From Pseudorhodoplanes sp. (GTDB lineage: Bacteria > Pseudomonadota > Alphaproteobacteria > Rhizobiales > Xanthobacteraceae): 64,000 nucleotides of DNA. The stretch covers positions 2,062,332 through 2,126,331 of the forward strand of contig JAVSMS010000001.1 in assembly GCA_032027085.1 (NCBI GenBank), written 5' to 3'. A program made the translations under genes and the position numbers. The notes under the pieces are model-generated. The model made no database searches and was not told the origin of the DNA. It worked only from the letters and a program-made list of their open reading frames with translations. Below, piece after piece: positions 85 through 22,892 of the stretch; within the stretch, counting starts at the first letter, position 1, and every line of letters begins with the position of its first letter.

Positions 85-168
85 ACCGCAGCATATATGG
101 CGCCGGCATATAATTGCCGGCGCCGGCAAGGAAGACCGCGTGACCCGTGAGGTTCGTGAGGAAGAGTG

Positions 169-1086
169 ATGTCGCGAGTCGAAACGCCAGAAGCTGATCC
201 ATCCGCTGTCGGTACGATCCCAAAGCCTCCTTTTGTACGGCTTTCCGACCCTGTCGAGCTCTTTGCTGCCCGCGCTGGGCGCTTCCGCGCGCTCGCGGAA
301 GGCCATGATCTTGCACCCTATCTGCACTTTCTTGCAGAACTGTGCGAGGCGCAAGCGACGATGCAGGATGGGCTGGCCGAACCAGAAGCGATCGACGCCG
401 AAGTTCTTGCGCGCGCGCATGAGCATGCCATGCCGCCGCTTGATCGCGGCAGGTTTGCGGTGGACACGGTCTTTGCGGCCACCTTCGACCGTCTGTTAGC
501 GGCCGCGGAGCAAATGAACATGCCGCCGCAGGCCGCGGCGGCACGCGATCGCGTGAAGTTGATGGACGCGGCGCTGCGCGAGGAAATGGTGCACAACGTC
601 CTTGCCGAATCCATTCCGGTCGAGACGCTGGCCGAGCATATCTTTGTCGCCGCCGCCCTGCAGGTGCATTTTGCCCGTCTGGCCGCGCGCCTCGATCCCA
701 AAACTCTTGTATCTGTTGGCGATAGCCTTTGCCCGTCCTGCGGCGGTGCGCCGTCATCAACCGTGATCGTCCGATGGTCGGTCCCGGAGGGCGCGCGTTA
801 TTGCTCATGCTCTCTGTGCGGAACACTCTGGAATCACTTGCGGTCGAAATGCACGTTGTGCGGGGCCACCAAGCAAATCCTTTTCCAGGAAATCGAGGGA
901 AGCGGCGGCACCGTCAAAGCCGAGACCTGCGACGATTGCCGCGGTTACATGAAGGTCCTGTATCAGACCAAAAACGATGCGCTCGATCCGGTCGCCGACG
1001 ACGTAGCGACGCTTGGCCTCGATCTGCTTGTGCGTGAGCTTGGTTTCCGCCGCGGAGGCGTCAATCCGTTTCTGATCGGTTATTGA
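169..1086 (+). CDS. fdhE: Formate dehydrogenase accessory protein FdhE
   Basis: A cytoplasmic protein of 305 residues, the usual FdhE size. FdhE is needed for active membrane-bound formate dehydrogenase and is thought to act as an iron-binding (rubredoxin-like) maturation factor. The C-terminal half carries the expected paired cysteines: CPSC, a CSCSLC cluster, CTLC and CDDC, spaced over about 70 residues, while the N-terminal half is helical and cysteine-poor. I chose ATG 169 over the GTG at 166 because GAGGAAG at 158-164 gives good Shine-Dalgarno spacing. selA follows after 12 bases, so the two are very likely co-transcribed. Confidence 0.9.
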   Translation: MSRVETPEADPSAVGTIPKPPFVRLSDPVELFAARAGRFRALAEGHDLAPYLHFLAELCEAQATMQDGLAEPEAIDAEVLARAHEHAMPPLDRGRFAVDTVFAATFDRLLAAAEQMNMPPQAAAARDRVKLMDAALREEMVHNVLAESIPVETLAEHIFVAAALQVHFARLAARLDPKTLVSVGDSLCPSCGGAPSSTVIVRWSVPEGARYCSCSLCGTLWNHLRSKCTLCGATKQILFQEIEGSGGTVKAETCDDCRGYMKVLYQTKNDALDPVADDVATLGLDLLVRELGFRRGGVNPFLIGY

Positions 1087-1098
1087 CGGAGGCCAGAT

Positions 1099-2514
1099 GT
1101 GCACAAGGACGCCACTCGCCTCAGACGCATTCCGTCGGTTGACGAAATACTGAAAACCGCAGTGGCGGTGGAAGCCATTGACCGCTTTGGCCGTCCACTG
1201 GTTGTGGCTGCCATTCGCGGCGAAATCGACGAGGCGCGCAAGGCACTTGGCGCCGGCCAGAATGCTCCAATCGGCGCTCATGACATCGCTACATCCGCGC
1301 TAACGGAACTTGAAGTCGAATCCCGCCCGAATGTTCGTCCGGTGTTCAATCTCACGGGCACGGTGCTTCATACCAATCTCGGCCGTGCGATCTTGGCGGA
1401 AGCCGCAATCGAAGCCGCCACTGTCGCCATGCGTGAGGCGCTTGCACTTGAATTCGACCTCAAGGAAGGAAAGCGCGGTGAGCGTGACTCTCTGATTCGC
1501 GAGCTTTTGTGTGAATTGACCGGCGCCGAAGACGCGACGGTTGTCAACAACAATGCCGCCGCCGTCCTTTTGGCGCTCAACACGCTTGCAAAGGGCAAGG
1601 AGGCCATCGTATCGCGCGGTGAACTGATCGAAATCGGCGGCGCCTTCCGTATGCCGGAAATCATGTCGCGCGCTGGAGCAAGATTGGTCGAGGTCGGCAC
1701 CACCAACCGCACACATGAAAAGGACTATGTCGGCGCGATCGGACCGAAAACCGGGCTTATCCTGAAGGTGCATACCTCGAATTACCGGATTTCCGGCTTC
1801 ACAAAGGAAGTGCCGGCAAAAAAACTGTCCGAGATTGCCCGCAAAGGCAACGTGCCGCTGGTGAACGATCTTGGCTCCGGTACGCTGATTGATCTCGCGC
1901 GTTATGGTCTTGCACATGAGCCGACGGTCGCTGAGGCGGTCAGCGAGGGCGCCGATCTGGTGACGTTTTCCGGCGACAAGCTGCTGGGCGGGCCGCAGGC
2001 CGGATTCATTGTCGGCCGGAAGGAGCAGATCGAACGAATCAACAAGAATCCGATCAAACGCGCGCTGCGTATGGACAAAATTCGACTGGCCGCGATCGAA
2101 GCGACATTGCGACTCTATCGCGATCCTGATCGGTTGGCCGAAAAGCTGCCGACGGTCCGGCTACTGGCCAGGACAAAAGCCGATATCGAGGCGTCGGCAA
2201 AGCGTTTGGTTCCCGTGATCGGCCGTGCCGTTGGTCCGGCCTTTGCAGTGAATGTGATTGATTGTGCAAGCCAGATCGGCTCCGGCGCAATGCCCGAGGA
2301 AGCCATCGCGAGCGCCGGTATTGCCATTCGGCCGAAGGCGGGAAAAGGCAGCGGCCGCGCGCTTGCGACACTTTCCTCGGCGTTCCGCTCGTTACCGGTG
2401 CCGGTGCTTGGCCGTATCGACAATCAGACTTTCATTCTGGATCTGCGTTGCCTGGAAGAGGATGGAAGCTTCATCCGCAATCTTGTGTCGTTCAAACACA
2501 AAGGTAGCCAGTGA
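1099..2514 (+). CDS. selA: L-seryl-tRNA(Sec) selenium transferase SelA
   Basis: SelA is a PLP enzyme that converts Ser-tRNA(Sec) to Sec-tRNA(Sec) using selenophosphate. The product is 471 residues, close to the family norm. The N terminus has the typical RRIPSVDEIL segment, and the PLP-binding lysine is K294 within SGDKLLGGPQ, almost the same position as K295 of the E. coli enzyme. The RPVFNLTGTVLHTNLGR block is also characteristic. The start is GTG 1099 with ACGGAGG at 1086-1092; an ATG two bases upstream is out of frame. The stop overlaps the start of the next gene. Its presence means the organism makes selenoproteins; the Sec-containing FDH catalytic subunit is presumably just upstream of the window. 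Confidence 0.96.
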   Translation: MHKDATRLRRIPSVDEILKTAVAVEAIDRFGRPLVVAAIRGEIDEARKALGAGQNAPIGAHDIATSALTELEVESRPNVRPVFNLTGTVLHTNLGRAILAEAAIEAATVAMREALALEFDLKEGKRGERDSLIRELLCELTGAEDATVVNNNAAAVLLALNTLAKGKEAIVSRGELIEIGGAFRMPEIMSRAGARLVEVGTTNRTHEKDYVGAIGPKTGLILKVHTSNYRISGFTKEVPAKKLSEIARKGNVPLVNDLGSGTLIDLARYGLAHEPTVAEAVSEGADLVTFSGDKLLGGPQAGFIVGRKEQIERINKNPIKRALRMDKIRLAAIEATLRLYRDPDRLAEKLPTVRLLARTKADIEASAKRLVPVIGRAVGPAFAVNVIDCASQIGSGAMPEEAIASAGIAIRPKAGKGSGRALATLSSAFRSLPVPVLGRIDNQTFILDLRCLEEDGSFIRNLVSFKHKGSQ

Positions 2515-3314
2515 TGCGCTGGCTCACTCGTATCTCGGCGCGCAAATCCAGGCCTGCCCAGGAGCAATCCGTGGCCGATACGATGGCGGCCGCATTCGAC
2601 GCCGCGCAGCGCAACGATTATGAGACTGCTCTTTCAATCTGGGGGACACTTGCCCAGCAGGGCGTTGCGCGTGCGCAGAACAACGTCGGCGCCTGTTTTG
2701 CCGAGGGCATGGGTGTAGAGCGCGATCATACGCTCGCGTTCAAATGGCTTACGCTGTCTGCGCAAGCTGGCGATCCCGTTGGCCAGCGCAATCTCGCGGC
2801 GCTTTACTTCAAAGGGGAGGGCGTCGAATCTGATCCGGCACGAGCGGCAGAGCTTTATCGCAGCGCGGCGGAATCCGGCGATGCGCCGGCCCAGGACATG
2901 CTGAGTTGGATGCTGCTTGAAGGAGACCTGATCGCGCCTGACCATGTGGAGTCGCGACGCTGGGCGGAAGCTGCAGCAGCCCAAGGTGTTGCTGCGTCGA
3001 TGACCAGGATCGGCATGATCTACCACAACGCGCTTGGTGTAGAACGAGATCCAGCCGCGGCGGTGCGGTGGTGGGACAAGGCTGCTGCGCGCGGAGATGC
3101 GGATGCGCAGGCCATGCTCGGTGCAGCGTTCCACTTGGGTGCTGGCGTGGCGCGCGACCCGGTGGCTGCGATGACCTGGCTGCTGCGTGGCCAGGAGGGG
3201 GGTAGCGAACTTGCCACTCCGTTCCTTGACGCTGTGCGCGCGAGTCTGGCGCCAGCTGAACTGGATCGCGCGGTCGCACTGGCCGAGCAACCCTTGCCGG
3301 AGCCCGTGGCATGA
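2514..3314 (+). CDS. Sel1-like repeat (tetratricopeptide-type) protein between selA and selB
   Basis: The 266-residue product contains about five Sel1-like repeats of roughly 36 residues, each with an A-x-A/G-Q-N-x-L/V-G start, a G-x-G-V-x-x-D turn and an A-x-x-W/Y-L/Y helix. Such repeats form an alpha-solenoid used for protein-protein contacts. I see no signal peptide, although a basic N terminus precedes the repeats. It is translationally coupled on both sides: the selA stop overlaps ATG 2514 (TGATG) and its own stop overlaps selB (ATGA). A scaffold or maturation role in selenoprotein or FDH assembly is an inference from position only. The name similarity of Sel1 repeats to the sel genes is coincidental. 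Confidence 0.85.
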   Translation: MRWLTRISARKSRPAQEQSVADTMAAAFDAAQRNDYETALSIWGTLAQQGVARAQNNVGACFAEGMGVERDHTLAFKWLTLSAQAGDPVGQRNLAALYFKGEGVESDPARAAELYRSAAESGDAPAQDMLSWMLLEGDLIAPDHVESRRWAEAAAAQGVAASMTRIGMIYHNALGVERDPAAAVRWWDKAAARGDADAQAMLGAAFHLGAGVARDPVAAMTWLLRGQEGGSELATPFLDAVRASLAPAELDRAVALAEQPLPEPVA

Positions 3315-5392
3315 TCATTGGCACGGCAGGTCATATCGATCATGGCAAGACGTCGCTCGTGCGCGCGCTCACCGGTGTCGACACCGACCGACTCAAGGAA
3401 GAAAAATCGCGTGGTATTTCCATAGATATCGGCTTCGCCTATCTGCCGGTCGACGACAGCCGCATCATTGGTTTCGTCGACGTACCGGGACATGAGCGTT
3501 TTGTCCATAATATGCTGGCGGGCGCGACAGGAATCGATTTTGTCCTGATGATTGTGGCTGCGGATGATGGGATCATGCCACAAACCAGGGAGCATCTGGC
3601 GATCATTGATCTGCTCGGCATCGATCGTGGGATCGTGGCCCTGAGCAAGAGCGATCTTGTCGATGCCGATCAGATCGCGCGGGTGACCAACGAAATCGCA
3701 AATGCACTGCTGCCGACATCTTTGAAAGATATCGAGATTGTGCCGGTTTCATCGACCACCGGACAGGGGGTGGATGCACTGCGGCAGAAGCTTTTCGATG
3801 CCGCGCGCACGCTCGGGATCCGGGCCAACAAGGGTCGGTTCAGGCTCGCCGTCGATCGTTCGTTCACGCTGCACGGCGCGGGTACGGTGGTAACCGGGAC
3901 CGTATTGTCCGGGCGTGTTGCGGTCGGGGACCGTGTGACGGTCAGCCCCTCGGGGGTGGAGGCGCGGGTTCGGTCCCTGCATGCGCAGAACCGCGCCGCG
4001 GAGTTTGGGCAGCCCGGTGATCGCTGCGCTCTCAATCTGGTCGGTGAGAAGATCACCAAGGATGTGATTTCGCGCGGCGACGTTGTTCTCGATCCACAGC
4101 TGCACGCGCCTGCGGACCGGATCGATGCCGAATTGCGGGTTCTTCAATCTGAAACCAAGGCTATAGGTCAATGGATGCCGGTGCGGCTCCATCATGCGGC
4201 GGCAGAGACGGGTGCACGCATTGTGCTGCTGCAAGACACGCCCATCGAGCCCGGAAGCACGGCCTTTGTCCAGCTCGTGCTTGAGTCTCCCATCGCCGCG
4301 GCCGTTGGCGACCGCTTTGTGGTGCGCGACACGAGTGCGCAGCACACCATCGGCGGCGGTCGTTTTCTCGATCTGCGGGCACCTGCACGCAAGCGGCGGA
4401 CGACAGAGCGTCTCGCGCAACTGCAAGCGCTTGCCATCGCTCAACCTGAAAAGGCATTGCTCAGTCTGCTCGATCGAGATCCGAGCTATACTGATCTTGA
4501 TGCATTCGCCCGCGATCATGCGATGGCGCAGGCGGAACTCGAAGCTATTGTCGAGCGCAATGCGCTTGTCCGAATTGCCGTGTCGAAGACGACGCTGGGT
4601 CTTTCACCGGCGAGCTGGCTGCGGCTGAAGCGTAGTTTGATCGCGGCGCTTGAGAGATTCCATGCTGAAAATCCTGATCTCGCCGGGATCGGACTAGAGC
4701 GGTTGCGTCTGCAACTTGAACCACGCCTGCCGGCTCCTGCCTTCGTCGCCATGCTCCAGAATTTGCAGCGTCGCGGCGAGATCACCCTCGACGGTGCATG
4801 GGTCAAGCTGCCGGGCCACGAAGTGCAGCTTACGCTGCGGGATGAATCGCTATGGGCGCGGATACGCCCGCTCATCAGCGGTGCGGAGCGCTTCCGCCCC
4901 CCGCGTGTGCGCGACATCGCGGGTCTCCTCGACGTGCCGGAAACGGAGATGCGGCGTCTTTTGAAGCTTCTCAGCCGGATCGGACAATTGGATGAAGTTG
5001 CTCACGATCATTTCTTCCTGCGTGGCACCGTCGCGGAAATGGTCCAAATAGCTAGGCACTTGGCGGAGTCCGCGAAAAGAGGGGAATTTTCCGCCGCGCA
5101 GTTTCGCGACCAGCTCGATAATGGCCGCAAAGTCGCCATTCAGATTCTCGAATTTTTCGATCGTCACGGTGTGACGCTGCGCCGCGGTGATCTGCGACGC
5201 ATCAACAAGCATCGTCTCGACCTGTTTCGCCTGCCAGCCGGCGAGAACGGCGAGCCAAAGTCTGTGCTTTCAGGAGGAGAAACGTCCCCGGTGGGGCGTC
5301 CGGACTTCAAATCCGGGAAGGGCCGCGAGACGGTTCTTAGTGGGTTCGACTCCCACTCTCTTCCGCCACTTTCCCGAAGGACCGCACGATGA
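3311..5392 (+). CDS. selB: Selenocysteine-specific elongation factor SelB (reading frame runs through selC)
   Basis: SelB delivers Sec-tRNA(Sec) to the ribosome at UGA codons followed by a SECIS hairpin. The N terminus is an EF-Tu-like GTPase: P-loop GHIDHGKT at residues 7-14, DVPGH at 57-61 and SKSD at 112-115 as the NKxD variant. Beta-barrel domains follow, then a winged-helix C-terminal region that binds SECIS RNA, ending near residue 640 with an ILEFFDRHGVTLRRGD segment typical of the last winged helix. The frame then continues without a stop through the whole tRNA-Sec gene (residues 655-686) to TGA 5390-5392, giving 693 residues against 614 in E. coli. The stop overlaps the next ATG. Whether the extra 50 residues exist in the protein is unknown. 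Confidence 0.93.
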   Translation: MIIGTAGHIDHGKTSLVRALTGVDTDRLKEEKSRGISIDIGFAYLPVDDSRIIGFVDVPGHERFVHNMLAGATGIDFVLMIVAADDGIMPQTREHLAIIDLLGIDRGIVALSKSDLVDADQIARVTNEIANALLPTSLKDIEIVPVSSTTGQGVDALRQKLFDAARTLGIRANKGRFRLAVDRSFTLHGAGTVVTGTVLSGRVAVGDRVTVSPSGVEARVRSLHAQNRAAEFGQPGDRCALNLVGEKITKDVISRGDVVLDPQLHAPADRIDAELRVLQSETKAIGQWMPVRLHHAAAETGARIVLLQDTPIEPGSTAFVQLVLESPIAAAVGDRFVVRDTSAQHTIGGGRFLDLRAPARKRRTTERLAQLQALAIAQPEKALLSLLDRDPSYTDLDAFARDHAMAQAELEAIVERNALVRIAVSKTTLGLSPASWLRLKRSLIAALERFHAENPDLAGIGLERLRLQLEPRLPAPAFVAMLQNLQRRGEITLDGAWVKLPGHEVQLTLRDESLWARIRPLISGAERFRPPRVRDIAGLLDVPETEMRRLLKLLSRIGQLDEVAHDHFFLRGTVAEMVQIARHLAESAKRGEFSAAQFRDQLDNGRKVAIQILEFFDRHGVTLRRGDLRRINKHRLDLFRLPAGENGEPKSVLSGGETSPVGRPDFKSGKGRETVLSGFDSHSLPPLSRRTAR
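5273..5368 (+). tRNA. selC: tRNA-Sec (anticodon TCA), inside the 3' end of the selB frame
   Basis: A 96-base gene including encoded CCA at 5366-5368. The acceptor stem is 8 bp (5273-5280 with 5357-5364, one G-U pair) and the T stem 5 bp (5340-5344 with 5352-5356) around the loop TTCGACT. This gives the 8+5 arrangement typical of bacterial tRNA-Sec. The anticodon TCA is at 5307-5309 in the loop CTTCAAA, and a long variable arm follows it. All of it lies on the same strand and within the open selB frame. There is no visible stop or separate promoter between the SelB winged-helix region and the tRNA. Confidence 0.96.
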
Positions 5393-5853
5393 GCATGAAG
5401 CCGATCGACAATTATCTTCAAAGGCTCGACTCGACGGCGCGCTCTAAGAGCGCATCAGAAGATGCATATCGCCGCGAGGCGGCCGAGCGGATCAAGGAGC
5501 TTGAGCGCGCGCGCGCCTTCTCGTTCCGGCGGCTGGCTCTTGTGAGGTCTGTCGCAGAGGCCGTGGCCGGCGCCAAAGATGAGGCAGAGGCCGCCGCGCG
5601 GGGATCTGCGGCGTTTCTGCGGGAAATCGGATGGACCGGCGCAACCGAGTCACAGCGCGAAGTCCTGGAGCGCTTCAGCCCGATTATTGCTTCGCTTTGG
5701 GAGATGTGCCGCGACGAGCCGCCGGCAGTCGACGTGCATGGCATCGACGACGATCTTGCCGCGTTTGAGACTTGGTTCGCGCAGAACCGGAACGGTTCTT
5801 TCCTGAGTCTGATGGATGCAGAACCCCTGGAGCTGCCGCTTGTCGAAGTGTGA
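5389..5853 (+). CDS. Hypothetical protein, 154 aa, first gene after selC
   Basis: I do not recognise a family. The product is soluble and charged: an N-terminal helical stretch rich in Lys, Arg, Glu and Ala (residues about 10-50, possible coiled coil), then a second helical part with Trp-containing segments and an acidic C terminus. ATG 5389 overlaps the selB stop as ATGA, and GAAGGA at 5376-5381 gives a Shine-Dalgarno. The next gene overlaps its 3' end, so it is part of the same operon as selB and the lipoate genes. Codon composition resembles its neighbours, which supports it being a real gene. Confidence 0.75.
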   Translation: MSMKPIDNYLQRLDSTARSKSASEDAYRREAAERIKELERARAFSFRRLALVRSVAEAVAGAKDEAEAAARGSAAFLREIGWTGATESQREVLERFSPIIASLWEMCRDEPPAVDVHGIDDDLAAFETWFAQNRNGSFLSLMDAEPLELPLVEV

Positions 5854-6241
5854 ATCGTTGCCAAGTGGTGCGTTTCTTTTTGACCACTGGGTGGTGGAAG
5901 AATTCCGCCGGTTGGATGGTTTCACGGCGCTTGTGGTGCTTGTCGGAATCGGCGACACCACCGTGTCCCCGCTGCGATCGACCTTTATGCATGTCATCGG
6001 CGAGGAACTGGACTGGATGGAGTTTTGCAAATTGCTCGCCGGCGCTGGCGTCGCCTGGGACGGCGTGCTGTTGGAGACTGTATCCGCGAAGGATGGCGGT
6101 CCGGTAACCGACGCTGAAGCACGCGCGGCGTTGCGGGCGTTAGAAAAGCGCGTGGTCGAAGACCGCCTGGTCATCAATGAGGGTCATTTTTTCGATAAAT
6201 GGGGGCGCCGGTTGAAAATCGAGGAGGCGTTGCCGCAATGA
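5840..6241 (+). CDS. Hypothetical protein, about 133 aa, upstream of lipoate ligase
   Basis: No family recognised. The protein is soluble, with a hydrophobic GFTALVVLVGIGD core early on, a DWMEFCKLL segment in the middle and a charged C terminus. It holds no obvious metal or nucleotide motif. The start is uncertain: TTG 5840 with GGAG at 5829-5832 is well spaced, while ATG 5816 is an in-frame alternative adding 8 residues and has a poorer ribosome site. It overlaps the preceding gene in another frame, and its stop overlaps the lipoate ligase start (ATGA). This tight packing argues that it works with the ligase, DsrE and lipoyl carrier genes that follow. Confidence 0.7.
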   Translation: MSKCESLPSGAFLFDHWVVEEFRRLDGFTALVVLVGIGDTTVSPLRSTFMHVIGEELDWMEFCKLLAGAGVAWDGVLLETVSAKDGGPVTDAEARAALRALEKRVVEDRLVINEGHFFDKWGRRLKIEEALPQ

Positions 6242-7305
6242 GCGTAGCGCTGCGCATTCTTGATACGGCAGAAATGCCGGCGCGCTGGAATGTCGCGATG
6301 ACGGCGGCGCTGACCGAGCTGCACCGCGCCGGGCGGATCGCCGACACACTGCGTTTTCATCGCTATCCGGCTGCTGTCCTTATCGGGCGGCATCAGAATC
6401 TCGGGCAGGCGGTCCATGTCGGCAGGTGCCGAGCCGCCGGAATCGAACTTGCGCGACGCGTGACGGGCGGTGGCGCCGTCTATATGGCACCAGGTGCTCT
6501 TGCTTGGGATTTGGTCATTGGGCGCGATACTGTCGGCTCTCGACTCAATCACGCGGCCGCTGCGGTCGGCGAAGCTGTAGCCGCAGCTTTGGCACGTCTC
6601 GGCCTGCCTGCGCGCTACCGGGCTGAAAACGAAATTGAGATCGCAGGCCGCAAGATATGCGGTATGAGCGGCTATTTCGACGGCGGCACGCTGGTTTATC
6701 AGGGAACGATACTCACCGACGCCAGTCTTTCGAACATGTCTCGGTTTCTGAAGCTGCCTTTGAAGCGCACACAGTCACTCCGTCACGACCTCAGAGAGCG
6801 GCTGGCGACTGTGACGGAAATTCTGGGGCGAAATCCGGATCCGGGTGAGATCGAAAATGCAATAGAGGCGGAACTTGCCCATGCGCTTGGTAGGTCGTCC
6901 ATACGGCGAGACCTGACGGTCGAAGAGAGGGAGCTGGCCGAAGAATGGCATCGCACGGAATTTGGGCTGGAGTCTTTTGTGAGCGGCTGCGATCTGCCGA
7001 GCGAGGAAATGACGATGATTGGACGAGACGGCTGTGTCCATGCCTATATCAAACTCATTCCCGGTTCGGAACGCCTCATTGATCAGATATGGCTTACGGG
7101 AAATTTCAGCGTCTCTCCGTCCCGGACGATTCCCGATCTGGAAGCCGCGCTGCGCGGAATGCCAGTGCAGCATGCATCCGAACGGACGGTCGAAATCCTG
7201 TCCAGTAGACAGATCGAAATGCGCGGTGCCTCTTGCTGCGACCTTGCGGCAGCAATTGCAAAGGCGGCGGTCGGTGGTTGCGGCCGGCGAACGAAATCCC
7301 TGTGA
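6238..7305 (+). CDS. lplA: Lipoate-protein ligase A family protein
   Basis: Predicted to attach lipoate (or a related acid) through an acyl-AMP to a lysine on a carrier protein. The 355-residue length suggests the catalytic domain plus the C-terminal accessory domain of two-domain LplA enzymes. Diagnostic residues are visible: RRVTGGGAVY at 73-82 for lipoyl-AMP binding and the conserved lysine K139 within the GRKICG segment, preceded by an NEIEI stretch. ATG 6238 overlaps the previous stop, and its own stop overlaps the DsrE gene, so it is translationally coupled to both. The obvious substrate is the GcvH-like protein two genes downstream. It could instead be a general lipoate scavenging enzyme, but its place in this operon argues for a dedicated role. 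Confidence 0.85.
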   Translation: MSVALRILDTAEMPARWNVAMTAALTELHRAGRIADTLRFHRYPAAVLIGRHQNLGQAVHVGRCRAAGIELARRVTGGGAVYMAPGALAWDLVIGRDTVGSRLNHAAAAVGEAVAAALARLGLPARYRAENEIEIAGRKICGMSGYFDGGTLVYQGTILTDASLSNMSRFLKLPLKRTQSLRHDLRERLATVTEILGRNPDPGEIENAIEAELAHALGRSSIRRDLTVEERELAEEWHRTEFGLESFVSGCDLPSEEMTMIGRDGCVHAYIKLIPGSERLIDQIWLTGNFSVSPSRTIPDLEAALRGMPVQHASERTVEILSSRQIEMRGASCCDLAAAIAKAAVGGCGRRTKSL

Positions 7306-7679
7306 AACGACGACTTCTTATCGTCCTTCTGAACACCGACCCGCGAAATGTGGAGGAGCTCGCCGCGCCCTTCTACCATGCTGCCGTAGCGGCTGCGATG
7401 GATTACGAGGTTGATGTTGTCTGCACGGCGACCGCCGGAAAGCTGATGATCAAGGGTGTCGCCGAGAATCTGCACGCCAAGGCCGGACATCCCATGACTG
7501 TACACGACTGGATCAAGGAGGCGCATCAGCATGGCGCGCGCTTCTGGGCGTGCCCTGCCAATCTTGATTTGTTTGATATCACTGAAGAGGATTTAATTTC
7601 TGAGTGCAGCGGCATGATGGGTGCGGCTTCCATGATCGAGGGAATCATGGAGGATGACTGTCGGGTGCTGACCTATTAG
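7302..7679 (+). CDS. DsrE-family (sulfur-relay type) protein
   Basis: A 125-residue protein of the DsrE/TusD-like fold. Proteins of this family carry persulfide sulfur on a conserved cysteine and pass it to partner proteins. The likely active cysteine is C84 in the ACPANL segment, followed by an ITEEDLI helix as in the family. C41, C102 and C120 are further cysteines. The GTG start at 7302 overlaps the lplA stop (GTGA). It is followed 9 bases later by the lipoyl-carrier gene. DsrE proteins, lipoate ligases and GcvH-like carriers also occur together in sHdr sulfur-oxidation loci, but no hdr-like genes are seen here. Confidence 0.82.
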   Translation: MKRRLLIVLLNTDPRNVEELAAPFYHAAVAAAMDYEVDVVCTATAGKLMIKGVAENLHAKAGHPMTVHDWIKEAHQHGARFWACPANLDLFDITEEDLISECSGMMGAASMIEGIMEDDCRVLTY

Positions 7680-7688
7680 GAGAGTGGG

Positions 7689-8129
7689 GTGGTTGCGGTT
7701 CGCGGATGCATGTTTCCAGATAACCTGCTCTACGACGTTCCAAATCACACTTGGTACAGTCCGGATAAAGACGGTCTTGTCCGCGTAGGCATGACCCAAG
7801 TGGCCATCGCGCTCGCGCGCGAAGTGCTGGTGTTCACGCCCAAGCGTGCCGGCCGTGTGTTTGAAGCGCAACGTTCCATTGCCACGATCGAGAGTGCCAA
7901 ATGGGTTGGCGTTGTGCGCGCCGCCTTTGATGGCGAGGTGGCTGCCGTCAATGAGGGATTGGTGGCACGACCCACTACGGCGAACTACGATTGTTACGGC
8001 GAGGGTTGGTTAATGCTTGTGCGACCAGCGAAAGGCGACTGGCAAGCCGGCCTGGTCACTGGTGCGGCGGTAGGGCCAGCATATGAGGACTGGATGGAGA
8101 ACGAAGGCTATCCAGGTTGCGGCGGCTAG
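7689..8129 (+). CDS. GcvH-like lipoyl carrier protein
   Basis: The 146-residue product has the H-protein fold signature. The lipoylation lysine is K71 within TIESAKWVG (family pattern IES-x-K-x-x), followed by the usual beta-turn region FDGEVAAVNE and the YGEGW motif near residues 103-107. In the glycine cleavage system the lipoyl arm shuttles an aminomethyl group, but no gcvT or gcvP is nearby. Here the partners are a lipoate ligase and a DsrE protein, which makes it resemble LbpA-type lipoate-binding proteins. The start is GTG 7689; AGGAG around 7679-7683 is a close Shine-Dalgarno. It is the last gene of the operon that starts before the window. Confidence 0.82.
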   Translation: MVAVRGCMFPDNLLYDVPNHTWYSPDKDGLVRVGMTQVAIALAREVLVFTPKRAGRVFEAQRSIATIESAKWVGVVRAAFDGEVAAVNEGLVARPTTANYDCYGEGWLMLVRPAKGDWQAGLVTGAAVGPAYEDWMENEGYPGCGG

Positions 8130-17781: not shown

Positions 17782-18141
17782 ATGACAGCGCTTGCAGCGC
17801 GCGACACGGCCGCGCGAAAACTGGTCCCGACCCTTTGCTACAATTGCGTCGCCGGCCCGGATTTCATGCAGGTGATCGTCGAGGACGGCGTTGCCACCGG
17901 CATCGAGCCGAACCACAGCGCGGCCGGTGTCCATCCGGGAGCAGGGCGGCCCTGCGTGCGCGCCTACGGTCTCGTGCAGAAGACCTACAATCCGCACCGC
18001 ATTAGCCAGCCGATGAAGCGGACCAATCCGAAAAAGGGGACGCGACGAGGATCCGGGCTTCGTGCCGATCTCCTGGGACGAGGCACTCGACACCATCGCC
18101 GCGCGGCTCAAGGACATCATGAGCCGCGGCCTCATCGATGA
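17782..18141 (+). pseudogene. Molybdopterin oxidoreductase (PadB-like), N-terminal fragment before a frameshift
   Basis: About the first 86 codons read as the start of a DMSO-reductase-family catalytic subunit: LCYNCVAGPD with a CxxC for the [4Fe-4S] cluster, a VEDGVATGIEPN strand and GRPCVRAYG supplying a further cysteine, then YNPHRI. At 18031-18040 (A5 G4 A) the sense changes frame. Removing one G restores KKGRDEDPGFVPISWDEA and joins this fragment to the frame that continues to 20545. Residues after that point in this frame (to TGA 18141) are not protein-like. It may be a real mutation or a base-calling error in the homopolymer. Confidence 0.8.
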
Positions 18142-20545
18142 GGCCGGGCTGCCGCGCGTCGCGGCGTCGTTCGGGCATGGCGGCACGCCGCGCAGCTATA
18201 TGGGCTCCTTCCCCGCCTTCATGTCGGCTTTCGGTCCGATCGACTTTTCGTTCGGCTCCGGACAGGGCGTCAAATGCACCCATTCCGAACATCTCTACGG
18301 CGAATACTGGCATCGTGCCTTCACCGTCTCCTCCGATACGGTGCTGACCAATCTCGTCGTCTCCTTCGGCTCCAACTATGAAGTGACCGGCGGCGTCTGC
18401 GCGGTGCGCCGGCATGCCGACGCCCGCATCCGCGGCGTCAAACGCATCCAGATCGAGCCGCATCTATCGGCGACCGCCGCCTGTTCGGCGGAATGGGTGC
18501 CGATCAAGCCGAAGACAGACGCCGCCTTCATGCTGGCGATGATCCATGTGCTGCTGCATGAGACGCCGCGCACCGCGCTCGACATCCCCTATCTGCGCGA
18601 CCGCACCTCCTCGCCCTATCTCGTTGGGCCGAACGGCTACTATCTGCGCGATCCGCAAAGCGGCAAGCCGCTGGTGTGGGACGAGAAGGTCGGGCGCGCC
18701 ATGCCCCACGACACGCCCGGCATCGTGCCGGCGCTGGAAGGTCATTTCACGGTTGCCGAGGCGGTCAGCCATCTCGCCGACAAGGAAGTGGCGCGCCACG
18801 ACAATGCGCCGGCGCACACCGCCTTCACCGCCATGGTCGAGCATATGCGGCACTATTCGCCGGACTGGGCGAGCTCGATCTGCGGCGTGAAGCCCGACAA
18901 GATTCGCCATGTCGCTAACGAATACGTGTCGAACGCCTGCGTCGGGCAGACGATCGAGATCGAGGGCCACACGCTGCCGCTGCGGCCGGTGGCGGTGACA
19001 CTCGGCAAGACCGTCAATAACGGCTGGGGCGCATTCGAATGCTGCTGGTCGCGCACGGTGCTGGCGACGCTCGTCGGCGCGCTGGAAGTGCCGGGCGGCA
19101 CGCTCGGCACCACGGTGCGCCTCAACAAGGGCCACGATAACCGTCTCGTCAGCGTCCTGCCGGGCGAGGACGGCTTCATGGTGTCCTCGCTCAATCCGAC
19201 GAGCGAGGCCGACTGGAAGGCCAAGCCCACCGGACGTAACGCCCACCGCACGCTCGTGCCGATCGTCGGCAATTCCGCCTGGAGCCAGGCGCTCGGCCCC
19301 GCGCATCTGCCCTGGCTGTTCATGGACAAATCGCCGGAGGAATGGCCCAAGCAGCGCGCGCCGGAATTCTGGCTCACCTTCCGCACCAATCCGGCGGTCG
19401 CCTTCTGGGATACTGCGAAGCTCACGCGCGCCATTTCGCAGATGCCGTTCGTCGTGGCCATCGCCTACACCTTCGACGAAACCAACCACATGGCGGACAT
19501 CCTGCTTCCAGATGCCTCCGACCTCGAAAGCACGCAGCTCGTGCCCATCGGCGGCACGAAATTCGTCGAGCAGTTCTGGGAGCATACCGGTGTCGCGTTG
19601 CGCCAGAAGGCGGTCGAGCCGCAGGGCGAGGCGCGCGATTTCACCTGGATCACGACCGAGCTCGCCAAGCGCACCGGGCTCATCGAGAAATACAACGCCG
19701 CCATCAACCGCGGTGCCATCGGCGCCCCGCTCAAGGGCAAGAACTACGATTTCTCGCTGTCGACCGATCAGGTGCACGACGCCGACACCATCTGGGACGC
19801 GGTGTGCAAGGCCTCGACTGCGGCGCTGACCGACGGCCAGGAGGTCAAGGATCTCGCCTGGATGAAGGAGCACGGCTATTTCGTCGTGCCGTTCAAGCGC
19901 ACCGACTGGTACCTCTATCCGAGCCTTGCCGACCAGAATCTGCGCTTCGAATTGCCGTATCAGGAGCGGCTGATGCGGGTGGGTGAGGAATTGCGCCGCC
20001 GCCTGCACGCGCAGGGTATTCACTGGTGGGACGAGCAGCTCAGCGAATATCAGCCGCTGCCGGAATGGCATGACGTGCCCGGCCGCTGGGTCAAGGCGGT
20101 GGTGGCGGCGGGTAAGAAGCCGGAGGACTATCCCTTCTGGGGCATCACGACCAAGACCATGTTCTATTCCGCCGGCAACAATTCCGGCGTGCCGCTGATG
20201 CACGAGGTCGGGCAGAACGTACGCGGCCATGGCGGCATCATCCTCAATGCCGGCGTCGCAGAGAAGCTCGGCATCGCGGCCGGCGACTGGATCGAGGTGC
20301 GCTCCATCGTCGCCGCGACGCGCGGGCGCGCGGTGCCGGTGCAGGGCTGCCATCCCGAGACCATCGTCATTCCCGGTCAGCACGAGCACTGGAAGACGCC
20401 GTTCGCCAAGGACCTCAACTTCCCCTCGCTCAACACCGTCACGCAGATGTCGATGGAACTGACCGACGCCACCGGCTCGGGCGCCGACGTCGTGCGCGTC
20501 TGCGTGCGCAAGGTCGACGGACCCGGAAAGGGAGCGCGGTCATGA
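18062..20545 (+). CDS. Molybdopterin oxidoreductase catalytic subunit, phenylacetyl-CoA:acceptor oxidoreductase (PadB)-like; lacks its N terminus in this frame
   Basis: The main part of a large Mo-bis-MGD subunit (827 codons in this frame, about 914 if joined to 17782). The frame opens at ISWDEALDTIAARL, the usual start of the second domain. The MopB body follows, and a C-terminal dinucleotide-binding barrel contains the GDWIEVRS segment. Together with the four-cluster ferredoxin and NrfD/DmsC-like anchor downstream, it matches the PadBCD enzyme that oxidises phenylacetyl-CoA to phenylglyoxylate with a quinone-type acceptor. I rely on the PaaX neighbour and subunit resemblance for this; other DMSO-reductase-family substrates are possible. 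No Tat signal is seen at 17782, so the active site is probably cytoplasmic. The stop overlaps the next start. Confidence 0.75.
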   Translation: MPISWDEALDTIAARLKDIMSRGLIDEAGLPRVAASFGHGGTPRSYMGSFPAFMSAFGPIDFSFGSGQGVKCTHSEHLYGEYWHRAFTVSSDTVLTNLVVSFGSNYEVTGGVCAVRRHADARIRGVKRIQIEPHLSATAACSAEWVPIKPKTDAAFMLAMIHVLLHETPRTALDIPYLRDRTSSPYLVGPNGYYLRDPQSGKPLVWDEKVGRAMPHDTPGIVPALEGHFTVAEAVSHLADKEVARHDNAPAHTAFTAMVEHMRHYSPDWASSICGVKPDKIRHVANEYVSNACVGQTIEIEGHTLPLRPVAVTLGKTVNNGWGAFECCWSRTVLATLVGALEVPGGTLGTTVRLNKGHDNRLVSVLPGEDGFMVSSLNPTSEADWKAKPTGRNAHRTLVPIVGNSAWSQALGPAHLPWLFMDKSPEEWPKQRAPEFWLTFRTNPAVAFWDTAKLTRAISQMPFVVAIAYTFDETNHMADILLPDASDLESTQLVPIGGTKFVEQFWEHTGVALRQKAVEPQGEARDFTWITTELAKRTGLIEKYNAAINRGAIGAPLKGKNYDFSLSTDQVHDADTIWDAVCKASTAALTDGQEVKDLAWMKEHGYFVVPFKRTDWYLYPSLADQNLRFELPYQERLMRVGEELRRRLHAQGIHWWDEQLSEYQPLPEWHDVPGRWVKAVVAAGKKPEDYPFWGITTKTMFYSAGNNSGVPLMHEVGQNVRGHGGIILNAGVAEKLGIAAGDWIEVRSIVAATRGRAVPVQGCHPETIVIPGQHEHWKTPFAKDLNFPSLNTVTQMSMELTDATGSGADVVRVCVRKVDGPGKGARS

Positions 20546-22028: not shown

Positions 22029-22892
22029 ATGGGCTGTGCGGTGACCGCAGACAGCATTGTCATCAACGATATAGGTGTCGTGCACGACAACTTGCCGGCG
22101 CCCGTCGACAATGTGCTGTCGCTCGCGTGCCGCAAGCGCCTCGCGCAGGAGCGCATGCGCGGTGTGCCGGAGGAGACGCCGGTCGCGCTCACCTTCAACG
22201 GCACGACCTATGTGGTGATGATGGCAACACCGGCCGATCTCACCGACTTCGCGGTTGGATTCAGCCTGACCGAGGGCGTGATCACCTGTCCCGCCGAAAT
22301 TGAAAGCCTCGCGGTGATGACGCACGCGACCGGCATCGAATTGCAGATGTGGCTTACGCCCGAACGTGCATCCGCACTCGGCGAACGCCGGCGCAGCCTC
22401 GCCGGTCCAACCGGATGCGGACTATGCGGTGTTGAAAGCCTCGCTGGCGTGTTGCGGCCGGTCCCGCGCGTTGCCGACGGAATCGTCATTACACCGCATA
22501 CAGTCCGTGCTGCCTTGTCGTCCCTTTCATCGGCGCAATATCTGTTTCAGGAGACGCAGGCGGTTCATGCCGCCGGGCTGTTCGTGCCTGGCCATGGCCT
22601 CGTGTCCGTGCGCGAGGATGTCGGGCGGCATAATGCGCTCGACAAGCTGGTTGGTGATCTCGCGCATCGCCGTATTCCTGGAGCGACCGGCCTCGTGGCG
22701 CTCACCGGACGCGTTTCGATCGAGATGGTGCAGAAGACCGCTGCGCTCGGCGCTGCCATTATCGTCGCCATCTCGGCGCCAACCGCGCTGGCCATCCGTG
22801 CGGCAGAAGCGGTCGGCATCACCCTGATCGGGATTGCGCGCGAAGACGGCTTCGAGGTCTTCACCGGCGGGCATCGGATGAGCTTCCCATAG
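22029..22892 (+). CDS. fdhD: FdhD-family Mo-cofactor sulfurtransferase, second copy
   Basis: A 287-residue homologue of FdhD with all key features: C130 and C133 in GPTGCGLCG, VREDVGRHNALDK and SIEMVQK. ATG 22029 starts immediately after the membrane-subunit stop, so it belongs to the PadBCD-like operon. It is similar throughout to the copy at 14415-15209 but has a longer N terminus (about 30 residues). The likely job is sulfuration of the molybdenum cofactor of the neighbouring oxidoreductase; it may instead duplicate the role of the fds-linked copy. Confidence 0.9.
   Translation: MGCAVTADSIVINDIGVVHDNLPAPVDNVLSLACRKRLAQERMRGVPEETPVALTFNGTTYVVMMATPADLTDFAVGFSLTEGVITCPAEIESLAVMTHATGIELQMWLTPERASALGERRRSLAGPTGCGLCGVESLAGVLRPVPRVADGIVITPHTVRAALSSLSSAQYLFQETQAVHAAGLFVPGHGLVSVREDVGRHNALDKLVGDLAHRRIPGATGLVALTGRVSIEMVQKTAALGAAIIVAISAPTALAIRAAEAVGITLIGIAREDGFEVFTGGHRMSFP

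Follow-up and report, generated by a model that had tools for sequence, protein, structure and literature searches.

The window analyzed here, a stretch of 64,000 nucleotides from Pseudorhodoplanes sp. (positions 2,062,332 to 2,126,331 of contig JAVSMS010000001.1), lies within a one-contig genome of 4.97 Mb rated 100% complete and carries, behind selB, five closely linked forward-strand genes that continue an operon of a selenocysteine (Sec)-containing formate dehydrogenase (FDH), fdhE, selA and selB. The first two, the helical A154 (5389..5853) and the alpha/beta protein B (5840..6241, 133 residues, TTG start), belong to no known family. They are followed by LplA (6238..7305), a lipoate-protein ligase placed by its Pfam match (LplA-B_cat, 2e-38) and by a tree in the sLpl(AB) type with an LplB-like C-terminal part, a predicted DsrE-type sulfurtransferase (7302..7679; Pfam DrsE_2 4e-10, DsrE 5e-7), and a lipoyl carrier that both Pfam (GCV_H, 7.6e-23) and a tree describe as LbpA-like (7689..8129). 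The bases ATGA are shared at the selB/A154 and B/LplA junctions and GTGA at LplA/DsrE, the most likely start of B (TTG at 5840) lies inside A154, and the carrier begins 9 bases past the end of DsrE; because of these overlapping stop and start codons and the short DsrE–carrier gap, the genes of the run appear to be translationally coupled. Behind the carrier, no promoter-like site and one terminator-like site on the opposite strand were found, no more than in shuffled sequences. A preliminary description of the locus had named the ligase, the DsrE protein and a GcvH-like carrier together with three residues, all of which are borne out by the Pfam matches and by recomputed positions: K139, the presumed catalytic lysine of the ligase (codon 6652..6654), C84, the presumed persulfide cysteine of DsrE (7551..7553), and K71 in the motif IESAK, the presumed lipoylation site of the carrier (7899..7901). 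It was also right about an overlapping gene run behind selB but began that run at 5840, where the actual first gene, A154, starts at 5389.

First, this arrangement recurs. Below, G000 denotes the window's genome, other G numbers denote sampled genomes and L numbers the stretches that were read. DsrE (E<=1e-25) is present in 27 of 248 genomes sampled from the family, and reading all 27 loci placed DsrE and the carrier in one run behind selB in 24 (11 including the window, plus 13). The remaining three are G002, which is cut by a contig end and has its SelB on another contig, G977, which is an sHdr locus in a genome with no SelB match, and G982, considered below. The full run behind selB also occurs beyond the family, in Paracoccus marinaquae (L033). 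The 24 loci together with G002, G982 and L033 make up the 27 cassette loci counted here (26 from the family). By profile searches, A154 is found in 24 of them, B in 17 and the ligase in 13, and the family loci, picked by DsrE, all carry the carrier (26/26); conversely, the 12 family cassette genomes first found through the carrier all have DsrE. Among 121 relatives, SelB exceeds its cut-off in 36 and an LbpA-grade carrier (E<=1e-20) occurs in 19. SelB accompanies that carrier in 13 of 13 family genomes, 12 of which have the cassette, and in one of six genomes outside the family, as raw counts uncorrected for relatedness. In the thirteenth family genome, G055, the carrier-like match is one of 37% that lies elsewhere (L104), without DsrE, Hdr or sel hits next to it, and is left out of the cassette count. 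The tie to Sec and FDH genes proposed earlier is thus upheld in 24 of 27 DsrE-bearing family genomes, and the objection raised along with it, namely that the cassette might neighbor Sec genes in this one genome only, falls away because of the same 24 loci; recurrence in the family likewise rules out a single-genome oddity.

Second, the residues on which a lipoyl and persulfide chemistry would depend are kept. The carrier lysine K71, presumably lipoylated, is present in 27 of 27 cassette carriers and is followed by tryptophan in all of them, as opposed to alanine in 11 of 11 GcvH rows. C84 is a cysteine in all 27 cassette DsrE proteins and all seven alphaproteobacterial relatives (counts that exclude two long stray rows, L163_5665 and L176_17260), and it is preceded by alanine in 27 of 27 cassette proteins versus cysteine in 6 of 7 relatives. 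Both proteins look constrained at the sequence level: nine pairs for each protein, including ligase-less loci, gave Nei-Gojobori ratios of nonsynonymous to synonymous divergence (dN/dS) of 0.11-0.24 for the carrier and 0.03-0.16 for DsrE, values that are rough since some dS exceed 1. Together with the recurrence of the arrangement, this constraint points to more than chance. The carrier is the sole GCV_H match in the window's genome and the only H-type match in 8 of the 12 cassette genomes of the 121-relative sample; the other four (G023, G044, G045, G059) have a second, GcvH-like match besides it. A further cysteine of the carrier, C102 (window 7992-7994, in a DCYG stretch), occurs in 10 of 27 cassette carriers and in 0 of 136 other rows; all 10 of these loci have the cassette ligase, and the ligase-bearing L091-L093 lack C102.

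The ligase of the window contains an RRVTGGG motif and matches the LplB model NF053749 at residues 279-343 (5e-7, below the curated cut-off). Across the cassette ligases, RRxxGGG is found in 13 of 13 and the lysine motif [RK]K[ILFV]xG in 12, L033 being the one in which it was not seen. Another match to the ligase/LipB family lies outside the cassette in 25 of 26 genomes, G002 being the exception; in G851 this match is weak and partial, and G873 additionally has a strong match in a frame of 489 residues. Where the cassette ligase has been lost, LipB may therefore fill in. Loss of the LplB domain has, according to Tanabe 2023 (PMC10332631), turned ligases into octanoyltransferases several times.

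Third, the module has a recognizable ancestry. In a tree of 87 of 163 carrier rows (the cassette, alphaproteobacterial and GcvH rows of at least 95 residues, chosen outgroups and 18 random others, with few columns), the 27 cassette carriers group together as a single clade (100/100); this clade and nine alphaproteobacterial rows join at 100/94, and the 11 GcvH rows form a separate clade. Seven of those nine come from loci with Hdr hits; of the two exceptions, L097 has lip genes but lacks an Hdr hit in its 19.9 kb, and L133 shows hits of neither kind. In the ligase tree (45 rows, including 14 random others), the 13 cassette ligases form one clade (100/99) that joins a clade of seven alphaproteobacterial relatives (97/95) at 81/73. 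The DsrE tree parts cassette from sHdr rows, with weak support at its deeper forks. The known counterpart is the sHdr-LbpA system of sulfur oxidizers such as Hyphomicrobium denitrificans (dsrE3C-shdr-lbpA plus lipS1-lipT-lipS2-slpl(AB); described in the consulted portions of PMC12423496), whose carrier, DsrE and ligase all have homologs in the cassette. The cassette carrier is 45-52% identical, with the same lysine, to relatives in L034, L096, L097, L100-L103 and L176, the ligase 34-39% identical, and DsrE 59-65% identical, with the same cysteine, to the DsrE of L034, L096, L100-L102 and L176, where Hdr genes are present, and of L097. Judged from these comparisons, the carrier groups with LbpA and not with GcvH, and the resemblance to the sHdr module noted in the preliminary description is true homology; the cassette DsrE is a putative DsrE3C-like sulfurtransferase with relatives among the DsrE proteins that alphaproteobacterial sHdr operons encode, where the label DsrE3C follows from gene order and literature and not from a family model. 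Unlike the sHdr-LbpA system, the cassette stands in a Sec/FDH operon, has no Hdr or Lip hits, has a ligase that is often truncated or lost, and bears alanine in place of the usual cysteine before C84.

The sHdr system itself appears to be missing from nearly all cassette genomes. sHdrA gave no match in 25 of 26 of them (E<=1e-20 for the window's genome), with Paracoccus marinaquae not searched and four of four controls positive; the remaining genome, G044, has two distant matches of 30-33%. Likewise, HdrA, HdrB2, HdrC1, LipS1, LipS2, LipT and LipX gave no hit in the 26 fetched cassette loci, the upstream stretch or the 64-kb window (E<=1e-10; whole genomes were not searched for lipS1/lipS2), and the same queries applied to six control loci returned all three Hdr and some Lip hits in five and Lip hits only in L097. 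The earlier statement that no gcvP or hdr genes accompany the module thus holds genome-wide for glycine decarboxylase (GDC-P), whose best match in the window's genome reached 22.9 bits against a cut-off of 26, and for sHdrA; gcvT was not searched for. In view of the trees, the missing sHdrA and the lack of Hdr and Lip hits nearby, an sHdr-type operon is the most likely source of the module, which would have outlived it. Tandem LbpA-like genes also occur in clusters of L043 and similar Chloroflexi loci and of L073 and L075-L078 (Sulfobacillus and kin); by eye, L043 includes Hdr-like and Etf-like open reading frames (ORFs) and a molybdopterin oxidoreductase.

The operon that the cassette continues is that of a Sec-containing FDH. 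Within the window, all on the forward strand, fdhE (166..1086; TIGR01562 8e-83) is followed by selA (1099..2514), an ORF whose counterparts also precede selB in relatives by tblastn, a Sel1-repeat protein gene (2511..3314; Pfam Sel1 1.7e-39), and selB (3311..5392; TIGR00475 1.7e-129), inside whose ORF ARAGORN places selC, the tRNA-Sec with anticodon tca (5270..5368). The FDH alpha gene just upstream of the window (L105) has an in-frame TGA in the context NQAR-TGA-HGPTV, and the two ORFs after it resemble, by eye, its iron–sulfur and cytochrome subunits. An in-frame TGA is found in 17 of 17 loci examined, comprising the window's genome, six other cassette loci and 10 SelB loci with no pair or with the carrier alone. 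An FdnG-type FDH precedes selB in 22 of 27 cassette loci; there is none in L177, and L088, L091, L163 and L167 stop short of the FdnG position, at the end of the stretch or contig. Downstream of the cassette, the window contains a gene for a LysR protein and, in a cluster of their own, the genes of an fds-type FDH. At 17800-20545, what appears to be the cysteine-containing N-terminal part of a third molybdopterin oxidoreductase is in a frame different from that of the 827-residue remainder, which looks like a frameshifted gene or a sequence error.

SelD, the likeliest acceptor in the relay proposed below, is found no more than about 1.3 kb past the carrier in 11 of 27 loci; it is convergent in eight of them and runs in the same direction in three (L087, L088, L167). 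In one of these, L087:7189-9564, directly behind the carrier gene, SelD is fused to a Pyr_redox_2 (pyridine nucleotide-disulphide oxidoreductase) domain. Fusions of SelD with NADH dehydrogenase-like domains are given as the commonest SelD fusions in the consulted portion of a Genome Research 2015 study (PMC4561486). The window's genome has two SelD matches over cut-off, one of them far away; the upstream one adjoins, by eye, a cysteine desulfurase-like ORF.

A154 and B appear to have a different history from the genes behind them. For A154, Pfam returned nothing for the window copy and scattered weak matches among 25 members, and NCBIfam nothing of weight for the window copy, the only one searched; B gave single weak Pfam and NCBIfam matches among 17 members. 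Structure models with predicted local distance difference test scores of 89 and 84, respectively, found no PDB match at E<=0.001, and membership of either protein in a known family is ruled out by the lack of weighty matches in the three databases. B matches 60 records of a plasmid collection, mostly from Sinorhizobium (46) and Roseomonas (11), and DsrE matches none there. By tblastn, pSymA of S. meliloti carries FdnG, FdhE, SelA, SelB, B and SelD, its B homolog lying after the tRNA-Sec part of the selB query and ahead of SelD. In 20 SelB loci without the DsrE–carrier pair (L180-L199, from family SelB genomes without the cassette; the contig of L186 ends at selB), A154 is found in 12 and B in 11, and DsrE, carrier and ligase in none; A154 and B thus seem to be of older standing in the operon, with DsrE and the carrier as an apparently optional addition. 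The alphaproteobacterial fdoGHI-selABC cluster described by Mukai 2021 (PMC8124441), as far as the consulted portion of that paper extends, has a nested selC and two downstream ORFs. By position, A154 and B are probably its 'ORF1' and 'ORF2'. The two clusters share the Sec-FDH, selA, a Sel1-like gene, selB with nested selC and the two ORFs behind it; the window's operon differs by the ligase, DsrE and carrier that follow, and neither 'lipo' nor 'dsre' appears in the main text of that paper.

A DsrE-like domain has been connected with selenium before. The SirA-DsrE protein YedF, or FdhU, was linked to SelD and to the biogenesis of Se-dependent FDH and was proposed as a selenium gene, according to the consulted part of Lin 2015 (PMC5322559). 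Unlike YedF, the window's DsrE has no SirA domain match, its only Pfam matches over cut-off being of DsrE type, and reads WACPAN at C84, where CGxC is absent. YedF systems are not known to include a lipoyl carrier. The portions consulted of Lin 2015 contain neither 'lipo' nor 'gcvh', those of Cao 2018 (PMC6067878) and Tanabe 2023 neither 'selen' nor 'formate', and those of a 2026 review (PMC13188914) no 'lipo'; titles and abstract openings of the papers found in literature searches, a scope that leaves aside supplements, most subscription papers and preprints, make no link between LbpA and Sec. No prior description of a sulfur or selenium carrier role of the module for selenium-containing FDH was found.

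What, then, would such a module do in a selenocysteine operon? We tentatively favor the view that an LbpA-type module of sHdr descent, consisting of ligase, DsrE and carrier, has been recruited for Sec-FDH biogenesis as a sulfur or selenium relay with SelD as its likeliest acceptor, because of its linkage to the operon, its recurrence behind selB, the proximity of SelD, the LbpA ancestry of the carrier, the conservation of K71 and C84, the absence of sHdrA and the precedent of YedF. The ligase, or perhaps the housekeeping LipB route where the ligase has been lost, would place lipoate on K71; DsrE would carry a sulfane chalcogen on C84 as a persulfide or perselenide and hand it to the lipoyl arm, whose dithiol could hold and reduce it; and from the carrier it would go on to an acceptor belonging to the same pathway. 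The likeliest acceptor would be SelD, which would receive selenide for selenophosphate, and the second candidate the sulfuration of the molybdenum cofactor. A narrower version, in which DsrE loads selenium onto lipoyl-LbpA and the latter delivers selenide to SelD, is possible if somewhat unlikely; if true, LbpA would have a function beyond sulfur oxidation, and selenium would be delivered by dedicated proteins. By what route reactive selenium gets to SelD is, to our knowledge, an open question in the field.

Several observations weigh against this relay. No SelD hit lies near the carrier in 16 of 27 loci, with stretches reaching at least 2.9 kb beyond it, and in the window's genome some 7 kb separate the upstream end of the window from the nearest SelD, which is on the opposite strand. 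The ligase is absent from 14 of 27 cassette loci, and 10 of the 13 cassette ligases lack the C-terminal domain, which is complete only in the window, L087 and L088; the 'dedicated ligase-carrier pair' of the preliminary description is therefore not the constant part of the cassette, where it is DsrE and the carrier that stay together. Twenty-two of 34 family SelB genomes in the relatives sample have no cassette, so Sec synthesis does not need it. A class-wide sample of 385 genomes has SelB in 55. Of the 53 SelB loci that were fetched from it (all but the window's own and a fragment in G457), none has DsrE and one has a carrier, convergent (L133); the same loci hold ligase-type matches in two (L125, L129), A154 in three and B in four. 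Class-wide conservation of the cassette with selB is thereby ruled out, and the sel link is a family-level one plus one distant case. An order-level sample (397 genomes; SelB in 31, an LbpA-grade carrier in 18 at E<=1e-14; six of the other 17 carrier genomes read) showed no adjacent case except the window, as far as contigs show. G982 (L177; 95% complete) has a DsrE–carrier pair and no SelB match in its genome, with no sel, fdhE or FdnG hit within 19 kb of the pair, which is still constrained (dN/dS 0.14-0.26 for the carrier and 0.06-0.18 for DsrE). Finally, the 19.9 kb read in L097 (G099) contain a carrier, DsrE, a ligase and LipS1, LipS2 and LipT hits but no Hdr or sel hit, so some LbpA modules may belong to neither system. 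The G982 pair adjoins transporter-like ORFs.

Alternatively, the relay may deliver sulfur rather than selenium, supplying via FdhD the sulfido ligand of the molybdenum cofactor or contributing to Sec-FDH maturation in another way. The FdnG-type FDH ahead of selB in 22 of 27 loci fits this idea, as do the relatives in sHdr operons, which handle sulfane sulfur (PMC12423496, in the portions consulted), and an FdhD gene is present in the window at 22029-22892, albeit outside the cassette operon. However, in the loci read the pair was not seen beside an FDH without selB, and the fds-type FDH of the window is encoded in a separate cluster. Nor is the FdhD-IscS route of E. coli known to need a lipoyl carrier. 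We regard delivery of sulfur as unlikely.

A rather unlikely alternative, next in order, is that the pair is a unit for redox or sulfane-sulfur buffering or sensing that travels with the sel operon and has no role in Sec or FDH. It would account for the constrained pair in G982, where selB is undetectable, for the 22 SelB genomes that do without the cassette and for the module of L097 away from both systems. It accords poorly with the pair's constant place in the same run in 24 of 27 family loci and with SelB in all 13 family genomes that have an LbpA-grade carrier in the 121-genome sample. That the carrier acts in a one-carbon or formate step by bearing formyl or aminomethyl groups on its lipoyl arm is highly improbable: its fold family and the fact that formate dehydrogenase genes are present are all that speaks for the idea, whereas the carrier sits on the LbpA side of the tree, no glycine decarboxylase exceeds its cut-off, the constant partner is a DsrE protein, and nothing further was found in favor of such a role. 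There is next to no chance that the carrier is an ordinary GcvH with its glycine cleavage partners elsewhere in the genome, since it shares with the glycine cleavage H protein the fold family (hence the GCV_H match) and the lipoyl lysine but is set apart by its clade, by KW in place of KA, by the GcvH-like second match of four relatives and by the lack of a GDC-P above cut-off, which rule that identity out.

These results mean that a module whose LbpA is described, in the portions of the literature consulted, as a part of sulfur oxidation persists without sHdr and is tied to selenocysteine and formate dehydrogenase. If the relay for Sec-FDH biogenesis is the right reading, the operon offers a small, genetically separable candidate route by which selenium may reach SelD, and the sister genera that have the same operon without the DsrE–carrier pair would serve as natural controls.

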